Source: Methanospirillum hungatei JF-1 (lineage in GTDB: Archaea > Halobacteriota > Methanomicrobia > Methanomicrobiales > Methanospirillaceae). Taken from it: 64,000 bases of DNA. Shown piece after piece: positions 8,438 to 21,382 of this stretch. The first letter of the stretch is position 1, and each line of letters opens with the position of its first letter. Location: the NCBI RefSeq assembly GCF_000013445.1, contig NC_007796.1, positions 2,516,936 to 2,580,935 on the forward strand, given 5' to 3'. The translations under genes were made by a program, and so were the position numbers. The notes beneath the pieces are model-generated. The model made no database searches and had not been told where the DNA came from. It was given only the letters and a program-made list of their open reading frames with translations.

Positions 8438-11026
8438 TTAGTTCCGGCGCATTACAAAGAATGCGACTGCACCAAGACCTGCAAGGGCAACCAGTGCACC
8501 AAATCCTGGGGACTGCTGGGTCGGCTCAGGGGTTGGTGGAACGGTGGTTGGCTCAGGGGTTGGTGGAACAGTGGTCGGTTCCGGAGTCGGGGTTTCATTG
8601 ACTACCGGTGCTTCGGTTGGTGCAACAGTTGGTGCTACGGTCGGGATAGCTCCAGCCTCAACAACGTTGAAGAGTGCAGTCTCGACGGTGTTGGTGGTCA
8701 CACCAGAGACACGGACGATGTACTCATCCGGCTTGAATGTGCTTGCATCAACATTGAATGCCCACTTGTTCAGACCATCAGTGCCCTGCTGGACCTTGAC
8801 AGTTCCGGTTGCACCGCTGAACTCACCACTCTGTGACTTGTCGGTCGGCTTGAATGAGGATGAAGTTACCTCGACAAGCAGATCATTGTCGTCATACATG
8901 AGGTTGGTGGTTCCGGCGATCTCGAACTTGGATCCTACAGCCTGCTCACCGATCGGGTTGATGGTGATCTTGGGCTCCTCAACGAGGAACTGCATCTTGG
9001 TGTAGGTATCGTCGACCATTGGAGAGTTGATTGCCTGGATAAGTGCTTCTGCAGCGTCAGTTCCCTGAAGTGCTCCGGATCCGCCAAGCTTGAACACCTG
9101 GGAGTTCCGGGTCGGGTAGGAACCATAGACGTACTGTGGCTCGAGCGGGTTGTCTGGATAGACATCAAACTCGTTGTTGTACATCGGGTGCTGGACTACG
9201 ACGAAGTACTGTCCTGCATAGAGGGATGAGGTCGTTGCACTCTTGATCTCGTGCTCGAATGACATGTCATCGTTCACGGATTCTGTTGCATAGAGAACCT
9301 TGTTCTTTCCAAGAATCCAGATTGCGACACCCTTGGACGGATCGCCTTCTGCAGTACCACGGAGGTACATCTTGTCACCCTTTGCAACAACACTTGCAGA
9401 TGCGGTTGCCTGGATGTATGGCTTCTTGATAACGAGAGATACGGTGTCGTACTGTGCGTCGCTCAGGTGATCCTTGTCACGTGGAGCGCTGACAGCATAC
9501 ACGGTGTAAGTTCCTGCATCAATCTCAAGGTTGGCAGTCTGCCACTTGAACTCGTAGGTGTCGTCATCCTGAACGTCAGCCTGATCAAAGGATGCCGGCT
9601 GGTCGTTGTTGACTTCCTTACGTGGAGATTTCAGCATTCCTCCTCTGGTTGGGAGGTTTGGACCGGTAATATACAGATAGGTAACGTCAGTCTCGGAGTT
9701 GGTACCGGAGAGTTTGACTTCCTCACCAAGGTAGTAGCTCTGGTCTCCAGATGCAACGATAGTAACATCGCCCTTTTCTACCTTGACATCGACCTCATCA
9801 GACTTGTACTGACTTCCGGATTTGCGTTCTACACGGATAGTGTACTTCTTGTCCTTGGTGTCCTTGGAAGTCTTCCACTCAACGGTTCTGGTTCCACTGG
9901 AGTTCAGTTTCACAAGTGCGTAGAACTTGGTTCCGTGGAATTCTGGGTCGTCGGGGACATCCTGCTTGATGCTCTTCCCTGCTCCACCTTCATACTGGTA
10001 CTTACCGATCTCGTATGGTCCTGCTGCAGCGTCCTGCTTGACATCAACCTGTGCGTCGAGGATCATAGGTGGCTGGTCATCAGGCTGGCCGGTCATTGAG
10101 CCAGTTCCCTTTGCCCAGACATAGTACTCAGCATTTGGGACACCAGTGATGGTTACAGAGAAGGGGTTGCCACGGACTACTGTGTCCTTGTTGGCTTCGA
10201 TCTTCACCTGGTCGGTGGCGATCTGAACACTCTTTACCGCAGAGATGGTCTTCCCGGTGTAGTCTGAACCGTCGGGTGCAGTATACTGATCCTTCATGCC
10301 GTTGGCGTTACACTCTGCCCAGACGGTGTAGGTACCTGCCTTATACATGCGGTTCCCATACTTGTCCTCGGCTGCAGTGTTCCATCCATCGTTGGATGCC
10401 GGCTCAGTGTGCTTGTTGTCAGGGCTTACCCAGTACCAGAGCTGCTGGTTGACAGCAAGATTCGTCAGCGAAATTTCCTTTCCGTTGTTTCCGACAAGGT
10501 TGGTGTAGACACCACCATCTGCACTCTTTACTTTGATCTTGAAAGGTGCATCTGCAGGCTGGTACCCTGGACGGGTGATGATGCTCTGCATGTTGGTCTC
10601 AACGACAAAGTTCCCGTAGTTGCCGACCGGAATTGCCTTACCGGTGACGTCTTCATTCACGGAGCCGTCCCAGATCTTCAAGTTCAGAGAGGGTTCCTTG
10701 ATGTTGAATGCGAGCGGGCCTTTTACGCTGCCGTTCCACTGATACCAGTTGCCGGTCTTTCCGACGAAGATATCAGGAGAAACATAAAAGTTCTGTGCAT
10801 TCGTAACCTGCTGAATATCTGCAGGCTGTTCAGTCTCGGTGTTGGTACCTGGCTGCCACCATGCGATCTGGCTGGATCCACCGGTTGCTGCAGAAACATC
10901 AAGTCCCTTCTCACCAAGGAAGACTTCTCCTCCGGCTGGGATCTTGTTGATTGCTGCAGATGCCGGGAATGCAACAAGTGCAAGTGCAACAAGCACCATC
11001 ATGACAACTGCAAATTTTGCGTTCAT
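8438..11026 (-). CDS. S-layer type surface protein with PGF-CTERM anchor
   Basis: 862 residues from the ATG at 11026, chosen because GGAGG lies seven bases upstream; an in-frame ATG 33 bases earlier has no such site. A signal peptide (about 1-24, ending PASA) is followed by several Ig-like or S-layer beta domains, a Thr/Pro-rich stalk with TPEPTTVPP repeats, and the C-terminal PGF-CTERM signal SPGFGALVALAGLGAVAFF plus MRRN. That signal is cut and lipid-anchored by archaeosortase ArtA in other euryarchaea. Sequons such as WNGS and LNSS are present. A strong promoter, structured leader and terminator suggest a very abundant protein, probably the cell-surface layer beneath the sheath. Confidence 0.85.
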   Translation of the reverse strand: MNAKFAVVMMVLVALALVAFPASAAINKIPAGGEVFLGEKGLDVSAATGGSSQIAWWQPGTNTETEQPADIQQVTNAQNFYVSPDIFVGKTGNWYQWNGSVKGPLAFNIKEPSLNLKIWDGSVNEDVTGKAIPVGNYGNFVVETNMQSIITRPGYQPADAPFKIKVKSADGGVYTNLVGNNGKEISLTNLAVNQQLWYWVSPDNKHTEPASNDGWNTAAEDKYGNRMYKAGTYTVWAECNANGMKDQYTAPDGSDYTGKTISAVKSVQIATDQVKIEANKDTVVRGNPFSVTITGVPNAEYYVWAKGTGSMTGQPDDQPPMILDAQVDVKQDAAAGPYEIGKYQYEGGAGKSIKQDVPDDPEFHGTKFYALVKLNSSGTRTVEWKTSKDTKDKKYTIRVERKSGSQYKSDEVDVKVEKGDVTIVASGDQSYYLGEEVKLSGTNSETDVTYLYITGPNLPTRGGMLKSPRKEVNNDQPASFDQADVQDDDTYEFKWQTANLEIDAGTYTVYAVSAPRDKDHLSDAQYDTVSLVIKKPYIQATASASVVAKGDKMYLRGTAEGDPSKGVAIWILGKNKVLYATESVNDDMSFEHEIKSATTSSLYAGQYFVVVQHPMYNNEFDVYPDNPLEPQYVYGSYPTRNSQVFKLGGSGALQGTDAAEALIQAINSPMVDDTYTKMQFLVEEPKITINPIGEQAVGSKFEIAGTTNLMYDDNDLLVEVTSSSFKPTDKSQSGEFSGATGTVKVQQGTDGLNKWAFNVDASTFKPDEYIVRVSGVTTNTVETALFNVVEAGAIPTVAPTVAPTEAPVVNETPTPEPTTVPPTPEPTTVPPTPEPTQQSPGFGALVALAGLGAVAFFVMRRN
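8523..8590 (-). repeat. 27-bp tandem repeat encoding the Pro/Thr stalk
   Basis: Two nearly identical 27-bp units beginning at 8523 and 8550 (ggctcaggggttggtggaac in each) plus a degenerate third encode TPEPTTVPP repeats just before the PGF-CTERM anchor. Such repeats form an extended, often O-glycosylated linker; repeat number could vary between strains. Confidence 0.8.
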
Positions 11027-11085
11027 TACATGTCCTCCGAACAAACGTTCGATTCGCATCTATCCGCCGATCAGCCATTGTTATT

Positions 11086-16373: not shown

Positions 16374-17195
16374 TCAGGTGACTGATAGACCAGACTGGTA
16401 ATCAAACGCTTTTGAAAACTTGACTATCCCCCCACTTACTTTTGCCTTATCTTTCATTGAGTTTGTTGCTGATGTCCTGTTCCATGATGCCCCATCATCA
16501 CGGGCTTCCATGATATCAGCAGAAAACTCTGTTGCCACTGTCCCGATTGCATACCCCAGACCAGATACAGGATTTGGTGTGAGATCGATCTGGTATGATA
16601 GAGCGGACGGAACTGATCCATCAGCGGCTACTATCCTGGCTTTCGCTGACGTTGAATACTGGGCACTGTTTACATTGATCAGTGAACTTCGTGCCCTGAC
16701 CGTATTACAGAAGGCCGGAACTGTAGCCGAAGAACCGGATGAAAACACACACCGGCCGATACCATTCGTATCTGAATAATTCCCACCTGAGTTTATGACC
16801 AGGGATTCGTCTGCTATGAGGTGACTGCCATCGATACTCTCATATGTTACTACTTTGTCTGTTTCAAAGTTATAGAGACCCTTTGTCTGATTCCTGGAAT
16901 CAAAATCAAGAGAACTGCTCAGCATCAGATGCCCCCCGTTCGTCATCAATGAATCTTTGTAGAGTAAGGACGCCATTGTCTCGTTCGGTCCAAAGATTCG
17001 ATCTTCTAGTGTTCCGGATGAAATTGTCCAGTCGAACGAGGTATCAGTGCTGACGTATCCGATAACGTCGATCAGAGTCGTGATCGATATCTGCTGGTTT
17101 TCAGGCGTTGCATTCGGAAGAAAGTCGGCCCCTATTGGAGATGATACTAAAAATAATGCCATAACGGCAATTACAGCTATTCGTATCCAAAACAT
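16374..17195 (-). CDS. MspA-like sheath protein paralogue, short and sequon-rich
   Basis: 273 residues with a signal peptide (1-23, ending IGA). It aligns end to end with the larger protein at 19965-21098: PENQQISITTLIDV, SLDFDSRNQTKGL, GRCVFSS with PAFCNTVRARS, INVNSAQYST and a closing SGGIVKFSKAFDYQSGL. It lacks a segment of about 100 residues found in the middle of the larger one. Two Cys (149, 163) are kept with the same C-x13-C spacing. Five N-glycosylation sequons (NAT, NET, NQT, NYS, NRT) are present, against none in the larger protein. ATG 17195 follows GGTGGGTGGGG; an in-frame GTG at 17204 is the alternative. Role: probably a minor sheath or spacer-plug component (inference). Confidence 0.75.
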   Translation of the reverse strand: MFWIRIAVIAVMALFLVSSPIGADFLPNATPENQQISITTLIDVIGYVSTDTSFDWTISSGTLEDRIFGPNETMASLLYKDSLMTNGGHLMLSSSLDFDSRNQTKGLYNFETDKVVTYESIDGSHLIADESLVINSGGNYSDTNGIGRCVFSSGSSATVPAFCNTVRARSSLINVNSAQYSTSAKARIVAADGSVPSALSYQIDLTPNPVSGLGYAIGTVATEFSADIMEARDDGASWNRTSATNSMKDKAKVSGGIVKFSKAFDYQSGLSVT

Positions 17196-17235
17196 AAACC
17201 CCACCCACCAATGCTAACTGTATAGTTGTCAGGAT

Positions 17236-17258
17236 AGTATAAGTACCTAATCAGGTAC
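17236..17258 (-). promoter_or_regulatory. TATA-like element and adjoining inverted repeat before the sheath paralogue
   Basis: A TATA-like ACTTATACT (minus strand, 17236-17244) lies just downstream of the inverted repeat GTACCT-AATC-AGGTAC (17243-17258). The repeat may be an operator, or part of the 3' end of the preceding oligosaccharyltransferase gene together with the T-run at 17260-17265. Confidence 0.4.
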
Positions 17259-17282
17259 TAAAAAAGAGGAAAACTGAGATAA

Positions 17283-19805
17283 TTATGTATAGTACTTCTC
17301 TATCTGTGATTCATCAACATCAATAGTTTGGTTTGTTTCTATGATACGATAGGGCCCGGTTGTTTTGACATCATATGGGGAATTCGTAGTTGCATAGGGG
17401 AGAGTAAAGGTGCCATTCTCACTCTGCTGACGGTAGGTGAAATGACGGCCCTGGTTCGTTACGATGGGGACTTCGATGGTTCCGGTTCCGGGGATGGTGT
17501 ATCCCTTGACCCGTTCGAAGATCTTGATGTTGTTGAGGGTTACGTCGCCAGGGAAGGTTTGGGTTCCATTAGATTCATAGATGAGACGGTAGTTTTTGAG
17601 GGCTGGGGTGTCGGTGATGGGGGAGGTGTACATCAGAGATATTATCTCTGTGTTAGACCAAGGTTGAGACAAGAATTGAATTGTCTGGGTCTGATCAATG
17701 GGATACATCTTTTGAAGGAGAGGAACTTCTTTACCTGACACGATTGTGCTTTGATATTGAATAACCACACTGCCATTGGCGTGCACATACGACCCATCAT
17801 TAGCGTGAAGCTTAACAAGAGTAGTATTAAAAAATGCGGGTTTCATTCCTAGCATCGGAGTAAGTATCGAAGAGGTTTTACTTGCTCGATTATAAAAAAC
17901 AAAATAATAAGGATCTTCATCTGGTTGTGCAGGTATCCATTTTTGAATCATGGGAAAATCGTTAAATAAATACTCATTTGTAGTAATAATATATTTTCCA
18001 TGTAATTGTGAGGCGATCATTTCTGCTTGAATATTAGAATCAGCAAGGAGGAACTTAGCTACAGGAACGATATTATCCTGAAAAGGAGAGGTTGCAGGAA
18101 TTTTATGAGCCAAGACAAGGATCCAGTGCCCACTAGTCCACCAAGATATTACCGTTGATATATTTTGGGGATATGAAAAAGATTCCTTATAGATTGAATA
18201 ATAATCAGGAACATCGGTGTTATTTTGCTGAGATAACCATTTTAATGATTGAATCCATTCATCATTTATAGAATCTTTAGGAGTTTCATTTAATCCAACC
18301 TCCATCGCAACAGGAATAGAGAGAATAGTGATCATAGTTATTAAAAAACCAATGCAAAGAATACCCTTGTTATTAATAAAAATTATTTTCCAGAAAAATT
18401 TATTTTTATTATCTTTTTGAATTTTATGATGCCTTACCTGAATTTTATCGTACAGTGCGGAAAGAAATACTCCAGCCAATATGACAAAAATTTCACCACT
18501 ATAATATTGAAATCGGACAACTAGTAAACTTATTACTATATAGACTGATGCCCATATAATAACAGCTAAATTAAGTGGATTTTTCGTCCGATAAAATTGG
18601 AAACATAATATTAAGAATCCAAAACAGGAAAGAATTGCAGTAATATTAAAAACTTTTAGAAACGTGAAAATATTGGATGATTGCATCTCTTGAATTGTTA
18701 CAGAGGTACCATTTAGCGCAAAAAATCTAGTTACCATATTTGTAAAACTATTAGAAATTTCCGAATTAATTAAAATTAATAAGGCCGAGAAAACAAAAAA
18801 TATCATTAACAATATTCCTGTATAAAAAAACCTATTTTTTGCAACTATGAATCTCGATAATATATAAAGAATACCTGATTCAGCAATTATTCCTGCAGGA
18901 ATGAAAAGATGAATTATCGAATATTGCCCTAATGACCACCCTGATACCTGGATCCCGCTTAAAGCAAATAAAATTATGAACAGGCCAAAAATTATCCCAT
19001 TCATTACAAAAATCCGACTATAGTCTGATTTTTCTGTAATAAGAACTGGTAGGAAAAATGTAAATAGGGCAATAATTATTGCAATTAAGGTACAAGTAGG
19101 CATCGTCATAATAGCCAGGTAATAGAGAATGCCACAAATTATTGAAAGTACTATTACCAGATTCTGGATTTTAGAATTCCCAAAATAGTGATGTGACCAA
19201 CTCTTTGTAGATAAAGGTGCCTTCCATTTGGTTCTGTTATTATTATTAGCATTAAAGTAGGATAATAAGATAAAATAACTGATAAAAAAAGAAGAAGTTA
19301 CGACAACCTCCATTATATGATGATCGACATCACCAAAAAATGACCTGAAGAGGGTTTCTCCCCCGACAACACATATTAAGATCGCAGCGAACCAGCCGGC
19401 TTTAACATCCCAAATTATTTTACCGAACATATAACAGAGAGGAATGAGAACCATACCCAAAATGACAGGAACCCATGAAATTGCACGAATAATATCGCCC
19501 TGGATAGAAGCATTTAGTATTAAAGCAATTAAACTGCTAAACAAAGGGAATACCGGCCCCCAATCAACAATCTTACCATTTGGATAAGATAAGAATGGAT
19601 CAAACCATGAGTAATTCGGAAAATGATGAATTATTTGTTCTACTTGTCGGACGGTATACCAAGGATCTGTCGATGAGACTATGGGCTGTATCGACTCTAG
19701 GAGAAAATCCGATGGCAATAATCGAATCCATAACCCTAATATCACAAAACAAAAAACAATTATACCTAAAAGGATATTTAAACGGCTAATTGAGGACAAA
19801 TTCAT
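17283..19805 (-). CDS. aglB: AglB/STT3-type oligosaccharyltransferase
   Basis: 840 residues: about 12-13 membrane helices (1-510) and a C-terminal extracytoplasmic globular part. Donor and metal-binding motifs are seen at TDPWY (Asp 47) and GDVDHHIMEV (Asp 159, Asp 161). At the acceptor-binding site the protein reads WWTSGHW (555-561), where the family signature is WWDxG: the Asp is a Thr. AglB transfers a lipid-linked glycan to Asn of N-x-S/T outside the membrane. The gene is strongly A+T-rich over its membrane part but near the local average over the last 140 codons. It sits between two sheath-type genes on the same strand. Confidence 0.88.
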   Translation of the reverse strand: MNLSSISRLNILLGIIVFCFVILGLWIRLLPSDFLLESIQPIVSSTDPWYTVRQVEQIIHHFPNYSWFDPFLSYPNGKIVDWGPVFPLFSSLIALILNASIQGDIIRAISWVPVILGMVLIPLCYMFGKIIWDVKAGWFAAILICVVGGETLFRSFFGDVDHHIMEVVVTSSFFISYFILLSYFNANNNNRTKWKAPLSTKSWSHHYFGNSKIQNLVIVLSIICGILYYLAIMTMPTCTLIAIIIALFTFFLPVLITEKSDYSRIFVMNGIIFGLFIILFALSGIQVSGWSLGQYSIIHLFIPAGIIAESGILYILSRFIVAKNRFFYTGILLMIFFVFSALLILINSEISNSFTNMVTRFFALNGTSVTIQEMQSSNIFTFLKVFNITAILSCFGFLILCFQFYRTKNPLNLAVIIWASVYIVISLLVVRFQYYSGEIFVILAGVFLSALYDKIQVRHHKIQKDNKNKFFWKIIFINNKGILCIGFLITMITILSIPVAMEVGLNETPKDSINDEWIQSLKWLSQQNNTDVPDYYSIYKESFSYPQNISTVISWWTSGHWILVLAHKIPATSPFQDNIVPVAKFLLADSNIQAEMIASQLHGKYIITTNEYLFNDFPMIQKWIPAQPDEDPYYFVFYNRASKTSSILTPMLGMKPAFFNTTLVKLHANDGSYVHANGSVVIQYQSTIVSGKEVPLLQKMYPIDQTQTIQFLSQPWSNTEIISLMYTSPITDTPALKNYRLIYESNGTQTFPGDVTLNNIKIFERVKGYTIPGTGTIEVPIVTNQGRHFTYRQQSENGTFTLPYATTNSPYDVKTTGPYRIIETNQTIDVDESQIEKYYT

Positions 19806-19934
19806 TTCTATCTCAATTATTTTTCATCTACAACATCATTAAATCATCTTTCGATGAGTGCATTCTCTAACCAAAAATCAGACTCATTCGTTGGAAGAAT
19901 TACAGATAATGGATGTAATAATTCCAGATATGGT

Positions 19935-19942
19935 AAAAAAAA
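19935..19942 (-). terminator. T-run terminator after the sheath protein gene
   Basis: Eight A on the plus strand (eight T on the minus strand) 22 bp beyond the stop of the sheath protein gene. It would end a highly expressed one-gene transcript before aglB. Confidence 0.65.
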
Positions 19943-19964
19943 GATTGAATTATAGATTTACTAA

Positions 19965-21098
19965 TTAGAAAGTAAACCCTGATTCGTAGTTAAAGGTCTT
20001 CTGGAAGTTCTTGATACCGCCAGTGACGGATGCAGTGTCCTTCCAGTTGTTGGTTGCGGATGGAACCTGGTTCTTGCCACGTGCTTCCATGATGGAGCCG
20101 CCGAAGAGGGTCTTTACAGTTCCGTCTGCAAATCCACTGCCAGAGTTGCTGTCAGGGGTGACGGCGATCTGGTAGTTGAGTGCTGCTGGGATATCACCGG
20201 TTGCTGCTACTGCACGTGCTGCACCCTTGGTTGAAACCTGTGCACTGTTGATGTTTACAAGTTCGCTCTTTGCCTTGACGACATTACAGAATGCCGGGAA
20301 GTACTCGGTAGATGCTGCTGCAAAGACACAGCGGATGCTGTCTGCAGTCTTCTCCCAGTTACCTGCTACATCAAGAGTCCACTCTTCTGCACCAACGAGG
20401 TGTGCACCCTCGGTGCTTGCATAGGTCAGAACCTTCTCAACTTCGAGGTTGTTCAGGCCTTTGCCCTTGTTGCGTGAATCAAAGTCAATGTTCTCATTGA
20501 GTGCGAGTTTACCACCGTTTGAACGGAGGGTGTCAGTCCAGGTCAGAATTGCGATCTCTTCACCTGCATAAAGCTTGCTGTCGTGAATTGCTCCCGGAAT
20601 CTTCACTGTGCTGTCTGCATAGTTAAAGTTTGCCTCGATATATGCTAAGTAATTTGCATAAGTGGTGCTACCGAATAATTCTGGATCCATGTAGTTTGTG
20701 TTGACATCTACTGGAACATTTAATTTAGTAAGGTAGAAAACTCCACCGATGTTCTTGTATGATAAGTAATCAGAGGCTGCATTTCCATACAGATTTGCCC
20801 ACTCAGTTGCTTTGGTCTGAAGATAATTAAGCTGTGCAGGGGTCAAAACAACTGCATTGCCTGCAAGGGCATCAAAGTTGTTATTATCAAAGATTACTCC
20901 CTCTGCAACAGAATTCTGAGAGTCAATGGTCCACTGCATTTCGCTTTCCTGGCTGACTGCGCCAGTGACATCGATAAGGGTGTCAATGGTAAAGATCTGG
21001 TTCTCTGGAACCTGCTGCGGGAGCCGGTCTGCAGATGCAAATCCGGTGACTGCAACAAGTGCAACCAGTGCAAGAACAATTGCGTATCCGAACTTCAC
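19965..21098 (-). CDS. mspA: Major sheath protein, MspA-like
   Basis: 377 residues (about 40 kDa) with a clean signal peptide (1-23, ending ASA). Size, signal peptide and amino-acid composition fit MspA, the amyloid-forming protein of the Methanospirillum sheath; I recognise it from that description, not from a search. It has just two Cys (257, 271), Gly/Ala/Asn/Thr-rich beta-prone sequence, and no N-x-S/T sequon. Residues about 72-180 form an insert missing from the paralogue at 16374-17195. The start is GTG 21098, with GGAGG eight bases before it. A TATA box, a short leader with a perfect stem-loop, and an oligo-T terminator point to a strongly expressed monocistronic gene. Confidence 0.78.
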   Translation of the reverse strand: MKFGYAIVLALVALVAVTGFASADRLPQQVPENQIFTIDTLIDVTGAVSQESEMQWTIDSQNSVAEGVIFDNNNFDALAGNAVVLTPAQLNYLQTKATEWANLYGNAASDYLSYKNIGGVFYLTKLNVPVDVNTNYMDPELFGSTTYANYLAYIEANFNYADSTVKIPGAIHDSKLYAGEEIAILTWTDTLRSNGGKLALNENIDFDSRNKGKGLNNLEVEKVLTYASTEGAHLVGAEEWTLDVAGNWEKTADSIRCVFAAASTEYFPAFCNVVKAKSELVNINSAQVSTKGAARAVAATGDIPAALNYQIAVTPDSNSGSGFADGTVKTLFGGSIMEARGKNQVPSATNNWKDTASVTGGIKNFQKTFNYESGFTF

Positions 21099-21119
21099 GT
21101 AAATTTCCTCCTACATTTC

Positions 21120-21138
21120 ATGCTGATACTCTCAGCAT
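21120..21138 (-). promoter_or_regulatory. Perfect stem-loop in the sheath protein mRNA leader
   Basis: ATGCTGA and TCAGCAT form a perfect 7-bp stem around a 5-base loop. It lies between the TATA box and GGAGG, so it would occupy much of the roughly 45-nt leader. It is likely to protect the 5' end or tune translation of this abundant message. Confidence 0.55.
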
Positions 21139-21163
21139 CAACAAAACAAGGTTGTGTGTAACC

Positions 21164-21173
21164 TCATAAATAG
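21164..21173 (-). promoter_or_regulatory. TATA box of the sheath protein gene
   Basis: On the minus strand ACTATTTATG, placed so that transcription would start near 21145, about 45 nt before the GTG start. Confidence 0.55.
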
Positions 21174-21382
21174 TTTCCCGGAAAAAATGTCGTTGATTGA
21201 CGATAAATCTATTCGTTTTGATCTTTTTGGGAAAAACCTTTTCTGATAAAATAACCCATATTTCTTCTAAAATCTCGAGATTATTCAATTTTTTCAGGAA
21301 TCGTAAAATCATATAAGGACAGCCGTGTCGAATTCTCATTTCCATCGCCCTCAACTATCTCTGAGCGAGAATCAGAATGACA

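Follow-up and report, generated by a model that had tools for sequence, protein, structure and literature searches.

The window analysed here, a stretch of 64,000 nucleotides from Methanospirillum hungatei JF-1, holds at positions 16374-21098 the main sheath locus of this archaeon. Three same-strand open reading frames of 276, 840 and 377 residues make up the locus, and the ORF calls, all on the (-) strand, together with a TIGR04154 match bear out the initial annotation in placing an AglB gene between the genes of two exported proteins. The parts of the locus are as follows:

19965..21098, (-): MspA/SH (Mhun_2271), 377 aa, GTG start, signal peptide at residues 1-23, cap insert at about residues 61-169, cysteines C257 and C271
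21099..21180, (-): MspA promoter (AAACTATTTAT) and 5' leader with a hairpin, GATGCTGA-GAG-TATCAGCAT and TGTAGGAGG; 99-100% identity over 83 nt in five species
19925..19964, (-): T-run directly after the MspA stop, a likely terminator, at the same place in all five species with the gene trio
17283..19805, (-): AglB/STT3 paralogue, 840 aa, with WWTSG replacing WWDYG; assigned from TIGR04154, motif alignment, GC, trees and a fold match
17205..17282, (-): spacer between AglB and the short SH gene with a TATA-like element (CTTATACTATCC), similar in the trio species and in genome G009
16374..17204, (-): short SH paralogue without a cap, 276 aa (or 273 if counted from the likely ATG)

The larger outer protein has 377 residues, a mass of 40.5 kDa and the residues T86, S144, N157, C257 and C271, while the published sheath protein MspA/SH of M. 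hungatei JF-1 is described with 377 residues, 40.6 kDa and the residues T86, S144, N157, C257 and C271 (PMC6242892, PMC10593813). Because length, mass and every residue cited in the two papers match, with no difference found, its sequence identifies it as MspA/SH, Mhun_2271 itself (WP_011449234.1), as had been supposed. One of the papers gives MspA a single cysteine, at position 271 (PMC6242892); the sequence has two, at 257 and 271, in agreement with the other (PMC10593813). MspA was found in purified sheaths by mass spectrometry (PMC6242892) and is known from the literature to be exported and to polymerise into the rings of the amyloid sheath with its cap facing outward. A comparison of its sequence with solved structures returned no match, and the neighbourhood published in these two papers carries no link to AglB or to a short paralogue.

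Both outer proteins have the hydrophobic N-terminal stretch, the LIDV region, the DFDSRN motif and the C-x13-C pair (C257/C271 in MspA, C152/C166 in the short SH) that had been noticed from the DNA, and all of these are present in the translations. At about 48% identity over the aligned parts (E 1.5e-56) and with shared invariant columns, the resemblance is far beyond chance, and the short protein is a true uncapped SH paralogue of MspA: it has the N-terminal part and the core in common with MspA, and is devoid of MspA residues 61-169 (approximately), the published cap region. The larger protein thus does carry an insert, but the alignment corrects its span from 72-180 to these residues. Translation of the short SH probably begins at an ATG three codons in (MFWIRIAV...), since this start is common to its relatives. 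A search with MspA recovered six homologous genes besides MspA in JF-1 (not counting a weak, partial hit within a 509-aa frame), and since six internal homologues were published in 2018 (PMC6242892), the short SH is, by elimination, among them. SH proteins with a small cap or none are known from across the archaea (PMC11576556), and the short SH has the core of this family of capped and uncapped members without the cap, so that the earlier view of a hitherto undescribed second sheath subunit was overstated. Its AlphaFold model is beta-rich, with about ten strands and a mean pLDDT of 72.9, where the criterion for the SH core is two six-stranded beta-sheets; neither viral structures nor the PDB yielded a convincing match to it, and the highest Z, 6.8, falls in the range given for models that have no clear relative. 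Viral SH-like proteins have been published (PMC11576556), and viral contigs screened with MspA and the short SH, and with the locus AglB, gave no hit, an absence that weighs little given the narrow pattern prefilter.

Our searches and gene maps covered 12 Methanospirillum genomes, and the trio MspA-AglB-short SH is kept in order and strand in five of them: JF-1, G002 (the M. hungatei M59 MAG), G004, G006 (a MAG) and G011 (M. stamsii Pt1). The upstream genes of JF-1, trmI-nac-PUA-recJ, are common to G004, G006 and G011. Downstream in JF-1 come truB, uroporphyrinogen-III synthase, nop5, fibrillarin and an S-layer gene, a block that lies about 50 kb off in G004 and about 110 kb off in G011 and in G006 is found on a different contig, so that the trio holds together although its flank has moved. 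The S-layer protein gene (8438-11059, (-)) and the trio are separated by about 5 kb in JF-1 but lie far apart in these three genomes; its 873-aa product, with DUF3821 and PGF-CTERM domains, matches the description of the S-layer protein Mhun_2263 (PMC11641113). Elsewhere the arrangement differs: MspA and the short SH gene are 181 bp apart in G009 with no AglB between them, no MspA or AglB lies within 8 kb upstream of the short SH gene in G005, and the G003/G010 clade has, at the same syntenic place, a tandem pair of uncapped SH genes without any AglB. The trio is likewise absent from 13 genomes with SH genes from other genera of the order, where no intact AglB stands beside any SH gene. The proposal that the three genes stay together in related genomes thus holds for five Methanospirillum genomes and fails for G009, G005, the G003/G010 clade and the 13 genomes from other genera. 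In G058, of a related genus, a decayed AglB fragment is found some 6 kb from an SH-like gene (L193, G058:C65; 5192-5662 and 11473-12129). The 2024 survey of the SH family states that no conserved context was observed for sheath genes (PMC11576556), and describes neither a conserved AglB between two SH genes nor the division of sequons set out below; the trio therefore seems to be newly observed here, over a limited range, in keeping with the earlier claim that the association is undescribed, which we did not find reported either. Synteny alone would not establish function.

The middle gene encodes an AglB/STT3 protein (TIGR04154, 566.6 bits, cut-off 450; also Pfam STT3, AglB_core-like and AglB_L1), whose AlphaFold model matches A. 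fulgidus AglB (Foldseek to 7e9s, E 2.4e-37). With archaeal AglB (TIGR04154; A. fulgidus 3waj, 5gmy, 7e9s) it has in common the fold, the C-terminal domains and the catalytic motifs, and the metal-binding EL1 Asp, the EL2 DHH and the TIXE Glu are invariant in all five locus AglBs in our motif alignment. It differs from these enzymes in the WWDYG and DK/MI motifs, which together make up the pocket that takes the Ser/Thr of the sequon (PMC8342417, PMC3703281). The first reads WWTSG in JF-1, SWEYG in G002, WWDYG in G004, WWNFG in G011 and WWGFG in G006, being altered in four of five with T, E, N or G in place of the WWD Asp, and the DK Lys is missing from all five. This second loss is less telling because one AglB pair lacking the Lys retains WWDYG. 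All 22 other full-length AglBs of the genus that were aligned retain WWDYG (a divergent JF-1 paralogue with TPWVYG was excluded), and the WWD Asp is kept in the sampled AglBs from other genera. The divergent paralogue (G000:C1:3425421-3427445, L127) also lacks several other conserved positions, and JF-1 has at least four further AglB-like genes besides the one at the locus. The locus AglBs form one clade in trees built separately from residues 1-720 (98/98) and 721-840 (99/97), and this clade adjoins the genus-wide Methanospirillum AglB in the whole-length and N-part trees with moderate support (92/93, 88/87), from which we conclude that the locus enzyme is a duplicate of the genus-wide one. 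That unrelated AglBs were inserted independently at one place is disfavoured by the grouping of the locus AglBs in the N-part tree as well as in the C-part tree, although long branches meet there. The frames are open in all five genomes (810-840 aa), with pN well below pS, and we infer an active enzyme with altered acceptor recognition.

A single operon for the trio is not supported. In each of the five trio species MspA is followed by a T-run and the short SH gene is preceded by a TATA-like element, which is weakest in G011; the element also occurs in G009, which has no AglB at this place. Published transcript data rank the SH genes besides Mhun_2271 and Mhun_1947 very low (PMC11576556). Taken together, the two signals and the ranking argue for separate transcription units. 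The leader of MspA folds into a hairpin in which some changes are paired, gave no Rfam match above the gathering score, and may mark main sheath genes. It (GTTGATGCTGAGAGTATCAGCATGAAATGTAGGAGG; 21099-21180 (-)) also precedes nine or more uncapped SH genes in the other Methanospirillum clade (L206-L218, in G010 and G003). In the clade of G003, G007 and G010 we observed no capped MspA orthologue; SH genes there are uncapped and multiplied (e.g., L130, L196), several of them with an MspA-type leader.

N-X-S/T sequons are unevenly distributed over the sheath proteins. There are none in MspA of JF-1, G002, G004 and G006, where shuffled sequences give 4.5-5.0 (fractions as low: 0.002-0.008), and a single one, in the cap, in MspA of G011; the Mhun_1947 group, which is the second capped SH, is likewise depleted, and the short SH with 3-5 sequons and other uncapped SH with 2-6 are close to expectation, in a shuffle test that ignores species relatedness and the sequence constraints of an amyloid core. 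The JF-1 short SH has five (N31, N74, N105, N142 and N242), and N242 and T244 are invariant in ten of ten uncapped SH. N157 of MspA, proposed as a possible glycosylation site (PMC10593813), is outside any sequon (N-F-N). The idea of an AglB dedicated to MspA as an ordinary N-glycosyltransferase is therefore weakened, because MspA is sequon-free in four of the five species and the acceptor pocket of the enzyme is altered; the locus AglB probably does not decorate MspA in the usual way.

Divergence along the locus is mosaic in the comparison of JF-1 with its nearest relative, G002 (one of the analyses behind these values covered seven of ten species pairs). Three flanking genes have pS of 0.15-0.29, the short SH 0.33, the genus-wide AglB 0.28 and the last 120 codons of the locus AglB 0.41, against 0.70 for the N-terminal part of the locus AglB and 0.72 for the MspA cap, a value inflated by cap alignments at 36% identity. 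The spacer between MspA and AglB is diverged as well, and the MspA leader and the spacer between AglB and the short SH gene are similar. GC content is 33% in the N-terminal part of AglB (residues 1-720), 47%, or flank-like, in its last 120 codons and 40% in the cap. With divergence in the MspA cap and in AglB residues 1-720 far above that of their flanks, the pattern suggests recombinational exchange and is what one would expect if a tract reaching from the cap to around codon 720 of aglB had been replaced. The MspA core between the two, at pS 0.30 and 93% identity, neither proves nor excludes a single continuous exchange, given the codon bias of the gene. Mhun_1947, another capped SH, has a cap without such a jump in divergence (96% identity). 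A generally fast evolution of the locus AglB in every species pair is not supported, as the G006-G011 pair has 69% identity in the locus AglB and 70% in the genus-wide one; between the halves of the clade the locus AglB is far more diverged, at 33-37% compared with 59-77% by region for the genus-wide AglB. In the S-layer cassette switching of Clostridioides difficile, recombination alters a structural gene of the outer surface together with the genes beside it. This serves as an analogy only: there is no homology, and the exchange proposed here would be between species and concern an amyloid sheath and an oligosaccharyltransferase.

How the enzyme came to stand between two sheath genes, and what it does there, can be read in several ways. 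We tentatively favour decoration of the outer face of the sheath by a duplicated AglB with altered acceptor choice, the short SH being a minor N-glycosylated subunit and cap and enzyme being exchangeable. Trees and synteny indicate that AglB was duplicated from the genus-wide copy and stood between the sheath genes already at the base of the M. hungatei/M. stamsii clade. Its retained metal-binding residues and open, constrained frame make it probably an active glycan-transferring enzyme, whose Ser/Thr pocket has changed in a different way in each species, so that acceptor choice may be altered or relaxed. Most likely it would act on the caps and on the minor uncapped short SH, itself probably an N-glycosylated subunit of rings or hoop edges, transcribed from what would be its own promoter. 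Cap and enzyme differ strongly from species to species, in the manner of an exchangeable surface cassette, with leader, core and short SH constant. The absence of the enzyme between MspA and the short SH gene in G009 and near the short SH gene in G005 indicates that it is dispensable. Two further points tell against the favoured reading: the four or more other AglB-like genes of JF-1 could glycosylate the sheath, and the transcript rank published for SH genes other than Mhun_2271 and Mhun_1947 is very low (PMC11576556). A bolder form, in which the locus AglB no longer reads N-X-S/T, glycans sit at species-specific sites of the sheath, and cap and enzyme are exchanged as an outer-face cassette, we regard as rather improbable.

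A serious contender, possible if not probable, is that the gene owes its place to history: an old duplicate serving other surface proteins (S-layer, archaellin, pilins) or drifting towards loss would simply have recombined along with its neighbour. Its absence from G009 and G005, the altered pocket, the decayed fragment in G058 and the lack of any sign of co-transcription with MspA (T-run, promoter signals) would all follow; intact catalytic residues in five open frames of 810-840 aa with pN well below pS, and a trio order kept in five species despite a rearranged downstream flank, speak against it. We think it unlikely that the locus AglB works as an ordinary N-X-S/T oligosaccharyltransferase with the short SH as its partner, the pocket changes being tolerated. 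The short SH alone of the pair does carry conserved sequons (three to five, N242/T244 being invariant across ten uncapped SH), and the G004 enzyme retains WWDYG, but the Asp and Lys lost in four and five of the five enzymes, respectively, belong to the Ser/Thr pocket (PMC8342417, PMC3703281), and uncapped SH with sequons exist in genomes without such an AglB. Least credible, indeed very improbable, is the module of the initial annotation, with AglB dedicated to MspA and the short SH forming plugs or caps: the gene order conserved in five species and the survey authors' suggestion of small-cap SH as possible hoop connectors or plug supports (PMC11576556) agree with it, yet MspA has no sequons in JF-1, G002, G004 and G006 and the transcription signals are separate.

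The gene association around this known sheath protein is thus real and apparently unreported. Sheath genes had been reported without informative neighbours, and a conserved AglB with an altered acceptor pocket provides a concrete candidate for a sheath-modifying enzyme. Its natural WWD changes would test how strictly the WWD motif dictates the sequon, and the division of sequons, avoided by the main capped subunits and kept by the minor uncapped one, predicts which sheath proteins would bear N-glycans.
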